Made by a program: the position numbers and the translations under genes
Notes under the pieces: model-generated
Seen by the model: the letters and a program-made list of their open reading frames with translations, nothing else
What the model was told of the DNA's origin: nothing
The model's database searches: none
In this document: positions 35,180-39,275 of the stretch, piece by piece
Position numbering within the stretch: the first letter of the stretch is position 1
How the letters are laid out: each line of letters opens with the position of its first letter
Assembly (NCBI GenBank): GCA_038049695.1
Contig: CP142454.1
Coordinates: 17,492,501 to 17,556,500, forward strand
DNA from: Cinnamomum chago
Lineage: Eukaryota > Streptophyta > Magnoliopsida > Laurales > Lauraceae
DNA length: 64,000 nucleotides
Reading direction: 5' to 3'

Positions 35180-35548
35180 TTAGGGCCCGTTTGGCATGTC
35201 TACTTTCCAAGTCTGTATCTCTTAAAACTAATTGGAAAAGACATTATGGGATAATAGACTGTTTGGATATCACAAGTAGTATGTCTATTTGAGCCAGATC
35301 ATAGACATTTTTTGTCTACTTCAAAAAAGCCCAGAAAGTATGCTGTTATGGACAGACAAAAAGGTCTGAAGCGGGTAGCCCATTTTGAGTAATTTTCGGA
35401 CAAGTTTGCCCTCACTTATTTCTGAGATTGACAAGTTTACCCATGGTCCTCTTTGCAACAACGAAGGTTCTCTCATTCACGTTGGAAAGAAAAAACCCTA
35501 ACAGAGCTTTTCCTTCCTTCCTCCACAGTGTTAACAAATTGGGAGCAA

Positions 35549-35847
35549 CAGGTTTGTTTTTTGCTCTTTTTGGTTCTGTTGCTGCTGGTGGGTCTGAGAA
35601 ATGGCCTGGGTCAGGAGCAGCTGAAGGCACCTTGGAGGATCCGCACCTTATTCTCTGTGGAGTGCCAGGATTACTTTGATTGGCAGACTGTGGGTCTCGT
35701 CCACAGCTTCAAGAAGGCCCTCCAGCTCGGGCCCATCACGAGGCTTCTCAGCTGTACGGATGAGGAGAGGAGCATGTACAAGGGGATGGAGCTTGCCCCA
35801 ACCATGGAGGTGCCATCCATGAGCAGGCACCCCAAGACTGGGGATTG
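35549..35847 (+). pseudogene. Captured exon 1 of a peptidyl serine alpha-galactosyltransferase-like gene
   Basis: The frame reads a hydrophobic signal-like stretch (LLFLVLLLLVGL), then RIRTLFSVECQDYFDWQTVG, ITRLLSCTDEE and EVPSMSRHPKTGDW. This is the N-terminus of the plant SERGT1 family, which galactosylates serine in extensins and arabinogalactan proteins in the secretory pathway. It stops at a donor-like GTGGGT at 35848, where the family has an intron. The catalytic DxD region and everything after are missing. No in-frame ATG fits the family start; upstream codons belong to other sequence. The frame itself is uninterrupted, suggesting recent capture or constraint. Confidence 0.82.
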
Positions 35848-37889
35848 GTGGGTTCCTTCTCTTCTTCTTTACTGAATCTGAATTGGTTTTTTTGTTTATT
35901 TATTTTTTAGATTGGGTTGATTTGTTTTTAGTTGATTTGAAATAGGTTCTTTTATGTTTAATGTTTTGTGTAAATTTGTATGTGCTTGTTCTGTTTTTCA
36001 ATCAGAGTGTTGGTTTTCACTGGGTTTCCATTAGGGGTTAATAAATGACAACAATGAATGATTTCTGGGTTGACTTTAAATATCTTTATTGGATTATTGC
36101 TGTTTTTCTTTTGCTGTGTTGAGTGGATTGTTTTTTGTTGAATCTCTTACTATCATTATTAACTTATTGGTTTTATAATGGAGTGATTTTTAAGTATTGA
36201 TGGGTTGACCTTGAAGACTTTTTGCCAATGCTTTTTTTACTTTCACTCTAGTTCTTCATTTCTCATTTGATCAAACCAATTTCCCATTTAGCCTTGTTCT
36301 TCATCATTATTCTTTTCTGGAATTTCATTGAGCTTATAGGAGGATTGCATTTGCCTTTTTTCTTCTTTTCTCCCCCTGTTTGGTGCATGTGTTCTTCCAT
36401 TTGGTTGTCCTTCTACCAATTCTTGTTTTTTCCCAGAGTTTGTTTCACTTGATTATTGTGTAAAGATGTTTTATCTATTTAGCATTTAAAATTGATCTGC
36501 ATGAAGTGGAAATAGGCTGTTAGTTGGCCTTTTATGTAACAATGATCTCAGTTGGAGAAAATTTATTGATGTCTCCATTGAACTCTTTGGAGGCATTTAA
36601 AGGTGGAGAGAAGGGACCCAAGCAACAAAGGAGAATCATACCAGTTCTACGGGAAGCGCTTTTATGGGTGCTGATTTCATTTTAAGTCATTCATGAGAAT
36701 CAATTTGAAAGTTCTCCAGTTCGTCAATATTTAATGTATCAAGATCAGAAATAAGGGAAATAAAAACCATCTTGTAGGAGCAGCAGACGTGGATATGAAC
36801 GTGACTGCCATGGTATCAAAGCCATTTTCTTTCTGCTTTGCATCTTTCCATTTGTGACTGTTCTCTAAATGGTTTCAACAGTCAACTCATCAATTCTCTG
36901 TGGCATACATGAAAACCAATCCAACATAAATACATGCATGCATAAATCTAGACTTCCTAAATCATGTTCCCATGTTAAATTGAGCATAGTTTAAGATCAT
37001 AGTAACTAATCTTAACCATATGTTTTGGCCTATCGAATATGTTGAATTTGGAGTATTAACTCATTCCCCTAAACAGTCCCACTTGATGACCGAAATCTGG
37101 AAACTGAGGGTTGTCCAGTAAGCAGAAATTTTAAGCTATGTTCCATCCATAGCGTGTTCCATGGTTTTGATAGTTTGGAAGGGTGTTCGTGCATTCCATG
37201 TGTACTGTGAGTACAGGGCAACTGGGTCCCAAAGGATGCACATGGGTCTGACTCTTTGAATTTTGGTGTAAATGATGAGCATTTTGTTCTGCATTGATTG
37301 TGTTTTGGCTATGAGCAATGGCAACAGTCCAATGGATGCTCTTTGCCCTAAAACTATGGATCCTTTTAAGCACTTTCAGATGACTAGTGCTGGAGTATAT
37401 CCGGACTCCCTCATTTGTCCATCTTCATTTATTGCAGATTTTACAAAGGGAGTTTTTCTTCCAAGTGATTCAATCTCTTAGCCAGATTAATGGTGCATTT
37501 GGATATCTTCACTGGTCACTTCTTTTGGTAGAATGGATTGGTATTTGTTATATTGTGCAGTTGGGTTGAAGAGGAAGTCTGTACTCTAGTGGAGATTGCA
37601 CTACTTGTGATATTGCTTAAACTTCTCCACCTCAACAGAGTGTTGGCATTCACCACTTGTTACTTGAGGATGGAAAAGGCAGAAAAGCAGCATTATATCT
37701 AGTCTGGTTTTCTATTTCTCAATTGATTAAAAAAAAAAAAAGTGGAGCCATTTACTGTCCTTCAGGCCAAAATGTTTACTACTTTGTTACATCCAAATGC
37801 CCTAGGGCAGAGACCTCGAATGACTATTTTTAACTGGAAGTTTTTTTTTTTTTTTTTGAAGTTGCTCTTACAGTTTCCTTTTGCTGCAG

Positions 37890-37985
37890 AATGAAACAGT
37901 TTCCAAGGCAATACAGGAGATCAAGAGATTAAAGCTTGCAAATGAAGACCTTTCCAAGCAAGTTGAAGGACTACAGAAGGACAGG
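37890..37985 (+). pseudogene. Captured coiled-coil exon piece, CHUP1-like
   Basis: After an acceptor-like TGCTGCAG, 32 codons read [14 protein letters not shown] and then [17 protein letters not shown]. The family next has a conserved EVEELVYLRWVNACLRYEL-type block, which is absent here. This matches the coiled coil of CHUP1 and relatives, proteins that tie chloroplasts to actin at the plasma membrane. Directly after the last arginine the frame continues into ubiquitin protease sequence. The piece is short, so the family call is less sure than for its neighbours. Confidence 0.55.
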
Positions 37986-38292
37986 ACTAAATCATTTGGA
38001 TGGGATACATGTGATTCATTCATGCAACACGATATGCAAGAACTTAATAGGGTTCTCTGTGAAAAATTGGAAGATAAAATGAAGGTATTATGGCCAAAGT
38101 GTCAGACTCATGTTTTAGACTTGACTAGTTTGTATTGGTTGTTGAGTTTATCATGGTCCTACTATCTGATTTCCAATGGCTCAGGAACTGTCGTGGAGGG
38201 TACTATCCAACAGTTATTTGAAAGGCACCATATGAACTACATTGAGTGCATCAATGTGGATTACAAGTCCACAAGAAAGGAGTCTTTTTATG
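37986..38292 (+). pseudogene. Captured UBP12/13 (USP7-type) ubiquitin protease exons
   Basis: The first piece (37986-38084) reads [16 protein letters not shown] and ends at KLEDKMK with a GT donor. After a 100-base intron the second piece reads [13 protein letters not shown], then [20 protein letters not shown], ending at 38292 before a GT donor. These are consecutive exons of the catalytic domain of plant UBP12/13, homologous to USP7. The catalytic cysteine and histidine boxes are not included. At the second exon one G of the expected AGGGA is missing, so normal splicing would shift the frame; leaving the intron in keeps the frame open through to 38339. A functional protease is impossible. 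Confidence 0.88.
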
Positions 38293-38386
38293 GTATTACT
38301 TTTAACCAAGATATACTTTTTTCAAACGGTGCATTATAATCTATATTATTGTCCAATCCACTTGACTTCATTTTATTGCATTGCAG

Positions 38387-38491
38387 GTGGATGAATCTTA
38401 TGATCAATACAGTGAAGATGGTTATGATGATTCCATGAGGGGAATACATGATCCAAGCTGGGACTTGTGGGAGGAATGGATGGATGGGAAG
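38387..38491 (+). pseudogene. Captured exon of unknown origin, 35 codons
   Basis: An AG acceptor (TTGCATTGCAG) and a GT donor frame a 105-base phase-0 exon. The product is very acidic and aromatic: VDESYDQYSEDGYDDSM, then DPSWDLWEEWMDGK. I do not recognise the family. It lies in the same orientation as the other captured pieces. Joined to the previous exon (phase 1) it would go out of frame, so it probably comes from a fourth gene. Confidence 0.5.
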
Positions 38492-39275
38492 GTGCAGGCA
38501 TCAGAGACTACTACACTTCACACATCAATCCTTACATTTGATTGGATTTTTATTTTATCTTGATGAATGCCGAAAGGCATCTTAGAATAACTTTTAAGAT
38601 GTAAATAACATTGGGTTTTCTTTGTATTAATTGAACTAGTTGTGTGTATAGCCAAGTATATAATGCAGAGTTCCTTGTGAACAAGTATATAATTGAAGTT
38701 TTATTTGTGAACAAGTTATTAGAGAATGATCAAATATGAGTAAAATTAACAAGGGATTGAATGCATGAATATTGATCATAGGGTTACTGCACTTTTGAGT
38801 TGGTTGTAAATTGAAAAGTTATTTGGGTGCATTTGGTCTTTTGTTTCTTGTTTTTTGGGTGTATTTGGTAAATATTTTTGTGCTAGGTGCGGCCAATAAT
38901 TGCCAAAAAAAAAAAAAAAAAATGGAACCAAATTGGGCCATAAATATTCATGGAATGGAACCAAATTTTGTGTCTCAATGAAAGTTAGAACTCACTTTTA
39001 TGAGTTTCACATTGCCTCAATGAGATAAATAATAATTTATAATGGATGTCAAATTGAATTTCTATTATAAATTACCTTTTTTTTAAAAGACAAAAATGCC
39101 CCTGTAATAAGCTCTTATTTGAAAGTTTACCAAACATAATTTTTCACATAGATCCATTTAAATTAGATATATTGCATGTGTTACCAAACAGTCTATTTAT
39201 AAATAGTCTATATCTCACAGATCTATTTCTCGCAGATCTATTTCAAACATATAAGATTTGCCAAACAGGCCCTTA

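Follow-up and report, generated by a model that had tools for sequence, protein, structure and literature searches.

The window analysed here is a stretch of 64,000 nucleotides of the Cinnamomum chago genome (contig CP142454.1; C4:17492501-17556500). At positions 35183-39272 of this window lies an element of 4090 bp, here called W, which has GGGCCYGTTTGGCA ends with TTA on either side and contains scraps of at least four host genes (Table 1). When up to two mismatches are allowed, its terminal 14-mer has six matches in the window, and it is exact only at the two ends of W. In the whole genome (1.06 Gb, 14 contigs) the exact 14-mer was found 395 + 404 = 799 times, compared with 0 + 1 for the reversed control. 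Extended by 10 further bases of the 5' end, it was found at 149 genomic places with up to two mismatches, compared with 0 in the control.

The gene pieces were named by comparison with protein families and proteins. SERGT1 was identified by the HPAT family (PF23452, 4.1e-06) and by protein matches described as peptidyl serine alpha-galactosyltransferase; in the corresponding gene at C4:70.78 Mb exon 1, exon 2 and later exons are present. The CHUP1 exon matches a Persea americana protein at 91%, the best matches that carry the name CHUP1 at about 50% and one unnamed protein at 95%. The UBP piece was recognised by USP7 chains (2e-18) matching the frame in the window and by a UCH domain; its suffix 12/13 is our presumption. 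The MATE transporter matches DETOXIFICATION 14 (5.1e-17) when the longer exon of sister copies is used, and its peptide has eight protein matches, none of which carries a name. A further unit, which was found in related copies, was named POP-DnaJ after PF00326 and prolyl endopeptidase chains and after a weak match to PF00226 below the cut-off. In Pfam, no family was found for the peptide of piece G, the MATE peptide or the CHUP1 exon.

For the map of the cargo we used the 5882-bp copy at C11:1.2 Mb (LF). W retains positions 1-343, 3137-3181 and 3792-5882 of LF with SERGT1 in between, and has lost POP-DnaJ. The SERGT1 intron 2 piece is joined after a skip of 1.6 kb which drops exon 2, with a microhomology of 3 bp. 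The second MATE piece meets SERGT1 by a deletion common to W and the copy at C2:96.6 Mb, with a microhomology of 6 bp. An open frame at 37881-38339 runs through the CHUP1 exon into the UBP12/13-like piece, and such a fused exon could be spliced into a transcript. All six named gene pieces of the family lie on the strand of the transposase, which may reflect selection, mechanism or chance.

The original prediction had placed an element with matching ends and TTA on both sides exactly here, with pieces of SERGT1, CHUP1 and UBP12/13 and an exon of no known identity in the same orientation. The SERGT1, CHUP1 and UBP12/13 pieces were recovered by gene or protein matches. The three donors that it named stand, and the MATE pieces and the 84-bp piece were found in addition. 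Parent genes were aligned for SERGT1, CHUP1 and MATE; for UBP12 and G, only pieces in other repeats were seen. An ordinary host locus in which the pieces are contiguous was ruled out: on C4, a distance of 63 Mb separates the SERGT1 gene from the CHUP1 gene, and the MATE gene is found on C10.

Table 1. Features of W (window positions) and segments of the copy LF (positions in LF).
Sequence	Feature	Position	Strand	Match or basis
W	TTA target-site duplication, left	35180-35182	.	read in sequence; flanks compared among copies
W	5' terminal inverted repeat GGGCCCGTTTGGCA	35183-35196	+	sequence; 14-mer searches
W	5' terminal region, Harbinger subfamily A	35183-35526	+	95.6% to C9:17827391; 57% to subfamily B
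W	MATE transporter exon tail (VLTNWEQQ) and intron start	35525-35569	+	97.8% to MATE gene at C10:62.98 Mb
W	SERGT1 exon 1 (no start codon) and part of intron 1	35568-36339	+	97.9% to gene at C4:70.78 Mb
W	SERGT1 intron 2 piece	36337-37209	+	97.4% to gene at C4:70.78 Mb
W	second MATE piece	37200-37354	+	98.7% to L053
W	84-bp piece, source not named	37353-37436	+	genome search, 23/23 candidates scored
W	CHUP1 intron and start of next exon	37435-37985	+	96.7% to CHUP1 gene at C4:7.63 Mb
W	UBP12/13-like piece, two exon parts with introns	37985-38390	+	98% to element with CACTA-type 3' end
W	piece G, unnamed exon and downstream sequence	38388-38922	+	97.2% to L044
W	3' terminal region, Harbinger subfamily B	38930-39272	+	97-98% to two B copies; 72-73% to two A 3' ends
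W	3' terminal inverted repeat GGGCCTGTTTGGCA, inverted	39259-39272	-	sequence; 14-mer search
W	TTA target-site duplication, right	39273-39275	.	read in sequence; flanks compared among copies
LF	subfamily A	1-1325
LF	POP-DnaJ unit	1327-2987		95.7% to B element at C6:41.8 Mb
LF	MATE	2987-3946
LF	piece between MATE and CHUP1, source not named	~81 bp
LF	CHUP1	4027-4579
LF	UBP12	4565-4985
LF	piece G	4983-5515
LF	subfamily B 3' end	5523-5882

Copies, transposase genes and terminal subfamilies

Copies were collected by a DNA search with the interior of W, in which 40 of 202 candidates were scored, so that the counts are lower bounds. At least ten cargo-bearing copies are present in the genome. SERGT1 is carried by W itself (C4:17.5 Mb) and by the copies at C2:96.6, C5:21.1 and C4:72.5 Mb, and is absent from those at C11:1.2, C11:38.3, C4:52.8, C5:53.3, C1:119.8 and C2:13.7 Mb. 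The flanking triplets match (TTA or TAA) in nine of the ten copies, the flanking sequences compared differ in all of them, and the homology between copies ends close to the terminal repeats, within about 10 bases. At C2:96.6 Mb there is a second full-length copy of W, with an end-to-end identity of 98.3% and its own TTA duplication. W is a multiply transposed unit, which moves with TTA or TAA duplications.

The copy at C5:53.3 Mb has the same two ends as W and carries transposase genes upstream of the cargo. Its open frame contains Myb_DNA-bind_3 (PF12776, 8.9e-22), and DDE_Tnp_4 (PF13359) was found on separate exon stretches with 6.5e-06 and 1.2e-06; each of these two matches exceeds the gathering score. 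A copy with the two ends of W thus encodes a Myb/SANT protein and a DDE_Tnp_4 nuclease, and the family therefore belongs to PIF/Harbinger. At least about 20 sequences in the genome closely match this transposase region, as found among the 40 scored candidates out of 243, and regions homologous to the two genes occur in copies of both terminal subfamilies, A and B, described below. W itself encodes neither protein. The GGGCC..GTTTGG-type terminal inverted repeat is common to W and the coding relatives. Three copies hold both transposase genes and cargo, each with a lesion in these genes: stop codons or a frame break at C11:38.3 and C4:52.8 Mb, and about 80 bp missing relative to other copies at C5:53.3 Mb. 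W is a Pack-type PIF/Harbinger element that is non-autonomous and represents an unusually complex and informative form of a known kind. The Pack-type PIF/Harbinger identity had been predicted and is supported by the coding relatives, the TTA/TAA duplications and the host gene DNA between the ends.

The two ends of W belong to different subfamilies. Subfamily A is represented by a transposase-bearing element at C9:17.83 Mb without any of the cargo of W and with TAA on both sides, and subfamily B by a transposase-bearing element at C12:20.28 Mb, whose ends read GGTTCAGTTTGGCTACTC and GGCCCTGTTTGGCAAATC and which is flanked on either side by TTA. Measured on the B copy at C6:41.8 Mb, the last kilobase of the transposase is 85% identical between B and A and the remainder 72-76%. 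The 5' terminal region of W (343 bp) clearly belongs to A (Table 1). For the 3' end, two A copies, two B copies and the copy at C1:119.8 Mb were compared; the identities in Table 1 leave gaps out. In local alignments with gaps counted, the 3' end of W is 98.7% identical to one B copy (316 bp) and 93.6% identical to the other (360 bp), compared with 82% to A over the best 223 bp. The copy at C1:119.8 Mb has two B ends. W is a hybrid, whose 5' end derives from A and whose 3' end derives from B. Such ends could have arisen if an A element was situated within or adjacent to a B element carrying cargo and the DNA between the outer ends was deleted, which would leave the 5' end of A and the 3' end of B as the ends of one element. 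The hybrid product would then be mobilised by transposase encoded by A or B, as the coding relatives suggest.

Some copies and neighbouring sequences show further features. In the copy at C2:13.65 Mb (L019, L061) a subfamily A 5' end is followed by an unnamed exon and then by CHUP1-UBP12-G; this exon, reading LMRSAPDFSTNSCEIAKERVSLKILEEMMDLIP, stands where POP, DnaJ and MATE would be. At C5:53.27-53.28 Mb (L020/L038), about 8 kb of other sequence is inserted in the UBP12 piece of a cargo copy. In the window, positions 33479-33906 form a second Harbinger/Tourist-like candidate, whose GGGTCYGTTTGGGA ends deviate from the pattern by two mismatches and which is 74% identical to an inverted copy at 17377-17809. 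A possible Harbinger relative at 56400-56500 has a GGGCCTGTTTGGAA end, which matches the 3' end of W at 71% in inverse orientation.

Stepwise assembly and origin of the cargo

The insertion of SERGT1 can be read from the two fuller copies at C5:21.1 and C4:72.5 Mb, in which SERGT1 replaces about 260 bp within MATE. Because MATE is found on both sides, SERGT1 came after MATE, and inside it. The core common to the ten copies (1.84 kb, from CHUP1 through the 3' end) was used for a tree, which was rooted on donor sequence. In this tree the four SERGT1 copies form one clade nested in the rest (ultrafast bootstrap 95), and the copy at C1:119.8 Mb stands next to the root. With SERGT1 inside older cargo and copies both with and without it, the prediction of more than one capture step holds. 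Compared with the fuller copies, W and the copy at C2:96.6 Mb both lack the same two stretches, of about 80-115 and 464 bp; the lineage of W lost these two internal stretches after the entry of SERGT1.

Both fuller copies contain three collinear SERGT1 patches (L039 coordinates 4839-4072, 2476-1508 and 337-304), after which MATE is resumed. The overlaps at the four switches are 2, 3, 4 and 3 bp. Microhomology of 1-6 bp was found at seven of the ten junctions with both sides known; it adds up to 22 bp, whereas a simple composition model predicts 7.1 (P 1.5e-4). This count omits both sides of the 84-bp piece, the junction between G and the 3' end, and A/cargo junctions beyond LF and W. The collinear patches and the microhomologies of 2-4 bp are compatible with gap repair that involved template switching. 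SERGT1 may have been copied in when a break within MATE was repaired, with the repair polymerase jumping forward twice along SERGT1 at short microhomologies before it returned to MATE.

Other parts of the cargo are shared with other repeats. The POP-DnaJ unit is contiguous with subfamily B and lies downstream of the transposase in the element at C6:41.8 Mb. A deletion of about 660 bp in MATE, relative to the gene at C10:62.98 Mb, is common to LF and to copies at C8:54.32, C9:37.70 and C6:45.78 Mb, of which the first two reach past both LF breakpoints and the third past the 5' one only; a MATE paralogue with a shorter intron could also explain it. Among three loci with a longer MATE piece (L051, L067 and L068), a comparison of the ends gave no convincing terminal structure. 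The 84-bp piece occurs at 23 places: in nine of the ten Harbinger copies, at six outside loci together with the joint to MATE, and at eight outside loci alone. The six loci with the joint are C7:28814997, C6:1217732, C2:46665083, C2:5640225, C8:11494406 and C6:27282737. UBP12 has at least 14 further near-complete and at least seven partial copies, and G follows downstream in four of the 14. These four elements, which were selected for the presence of G, terminate some 300 bp beyond it in a CACTA-type end, CACTACAAGAAAAA, which is exact in three of them and has a single mismatch in the fourth; in L044, G lies 3' of UBP12 and about 300 bp from such an end. UBP12 and G are spaced by about 0.74-1.4 kb in the CACTA-type elements and overlap by 3 bp in the Harbinger copies.

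Pieces which occur in other repeats with shared breakpoints or a shared order need not come straight from host genes. POP-DnaJ, MATE with the 84-bp piece and UBP12 with G may have arrived second-hand from other mobile repeats, and the shared order in particular suggests that Harbinger may have taken UBP12 and G from a CACTA element. CHUP1 and SERGT1 would come from the genes themselves, and these two have the best evidence of being captured directly from the host genes. A general pool of second-hand exons, in which captured pieces pass from CACTA-type and other repeats to Harbinger and subfamily ends are swapped, is conceivable and is put forward tentatively.

L044 (C7:26077000-26083500), with its CACTA-type 3' end, contains several gene-like exons besides UBP12 and G and looks multi-donor. 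One of these exons reads MFRAARWRVEKNKIKLVFKLQF and resembles an NT-C2 protein.

Taken together, W is very probably a hybrid-ended Pack-type PIF/Harbinger element with stepwise and partly second-hand cargo, a SERGT1 piece acquired by gap repair, and mobilisation by transposase in trans. A single mechanism for the whole cargo is offered by tandem insertion, in which a gene piece lies between neighbouring copies that lose their inner ends, so that the outer ends mobilise the whole as one unit. This route is published for Pack-PIF and Pack-CACTA elements (Gisby and Catoni, 2022; PMC8903248), and the A/B hybrid itself fits it well. For SERGT1, however, it would need two cargo copies within the SERGT1 gene and several more deletions, whereas the piece lies inside MATE, of which no more than about 260 bp is lost, and consists of three ordered patches with forward skips and microhomology. 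No convincing Harbinger end was found in 7.5 kb around SERGT1 or in 7.0 kb around CHUP1, where one match to the end pattern with two mismatches lacks TTA, although excision could have taken such ends away from the donor genes. We regard tandem insertion as the source of all cargo as unlikely. Direct capture of every piece from a host gene, with the shared pieces elsewhere being independent captures of favoured genes, agrees with the close match of SERGT1 and CHUP1 to intact genes. A second G stretch, which is carried by B elements and has only 41 bp in common with that of W, also points to separate captures and speaks against a simple relay. This explanation is harder to reconcile with the MATE deletion common to longer copies in other repeats, the MATE/84-bp joint at six loci outside the ten copies (their repeat class was not read), the same order of UBP12 and G in four elements with CACTA-type 3' ends, and the contiguity of POP-DnaJ with subfamily B, and it appears improbable. 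Helitrons gather gene pieces on one strand, as is the case here. An ordinary segmental duplication or a Helitron which ends by chance in a Harbinger-like repeat is nevertheless practically out of the question: W has terminal inverted repeats and target-site duplications, both of which Helitrons lack, nine of the ten copies have perfect 3-bp duplications in differing flanks, and the homology stops close to the terminal repeats.

Several observations weigh against the preferred reading of a hybrid with partly second-hand cargo. The copy at C11:38.3 Mb is flanked by ACT and TAA and has no matching duplication. Because few 3' ends were compared, an A lineage may earlier have gained a B-like 3' end, and no locus with A beside B was seen, although a systematic search was not made. 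The other tree nodes have support of 55-88; a position of the SERGT1 copies next to two copies with transposase genes receives 61-69. Junctions J1, J2 and J10 are without microhomology; at J1 and J10 a mismatch close by interrupts the match. In ten of the 14 near-complete UBP12 copies no G was found within about 1.5 kb downstream; in one UBP12 copy (L031) the stretch ends just short of the expected position. The CACTA 5' end of the four elements with UBP12 and G was not found in the stretches examined, so their assignment refers to the 3' ends alone. UBP12 and G may still have been captured directly, because only pieces in other repeats were seen and the parent genes were not found. The start of the cargo leaves a further point. 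It lies at about LF 1614 (within a few bases) in the copy at C1:119.8 Mb, behind a B 5' end, and also at about LF 1614 in the A-ended transposase copies, and at 1327 in LF itself. An ancestor with A upstream of B, from which different stretches were later deleted, would account for LF as well as the copies with A ends, but leaves the near coincidence with the C1:119.8 Mb copy unexplained.

Related systems and other repeats

Gene-carrying PIF elements have been described in other plants. Family #18 of the Zm-Pack-PIF elements in maize shows a two-step capture series (Gisby and Catoni, 2022; PMC8903248). Like the family of W, it is a PIF family with copies that contain none, one or a second, internal capture. 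It differs in that its two captured pieces are short (163 and 58 bp) and its elements have a mean length of 402-535 bp; W has six sources in 4.1 kb (more in its sisters), kept introns, ends from two subfamilies, and cargo which is shared with other repeats. Pifvine-3 of grapevine (PMC2528002) is likewise a multi-copy PIF family that has ORF1 and a transposase, and many of its members contain a long stretch similar to exons and introns of the host, as W does; unlike in the family of W, hybrid ends and an ordered multi-donor series are not described in the parts of that report available to us. The statement in the original prediction that Harbinger elements with several donors are much less described is therefore fair, but they are not undescribed, as both reports contain gene-carrying PIF elements.

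Outside this superfamily, Tgm-Express1 of soybean is similar to W in its size (5.7 kb) and in its exon and intron pieces from five unrelated genes (Zabala and Vodkin, 2007; PMC1947982). It is a CACTA element, however, and a single one in one gene, and a stepwise series of copies is not described in the available text. In Caenorhabditis elegans, an element with two captured coding sequences is known (PMC2572040). Animal Pack-TIRs resemble W in their filler DNA, which is explained by gap filling with template switching, and in the short microhomology at the breakpoints, with a median of 2 bp (PMC8277862), whereas W is a plant Harbinger element with repeated rounds and with patches of one gene in order. 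For a hybrid-ended Harbinger element or for cargo shared between Harbinger and CACTA, no report was found among titles and the beginnings of abstracts in the open-licence literature.

The way in which cut-and-paste transposons acquire pieces of unlinked genes is an open question, and a review from 2026 states that an undiscovered capture mechanism may exist for unlinked genes (PMC13317346). The family of W keeps donors, intermediates and products, and its breakpoints can be read to the base. Two processes are separable in one lineage, the joining of ends from two subfamilies and the templated filling with patches from a distant gene. If it is true that exons pass between superfamilies, surveys which count every fragment as a fresh capture would be misled.

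Other repeats were also seen in the window. A direct repeat of 1064 bp with 95% identity, possibly the long terminal repeats of a retrotransposon, occupies 18481-19544 and 22487-23550. A tandem repeat array at 1182-1970 adjoins minus-strand frames at 2273-6656, which we take to be gypsy-type polyprotein-like.

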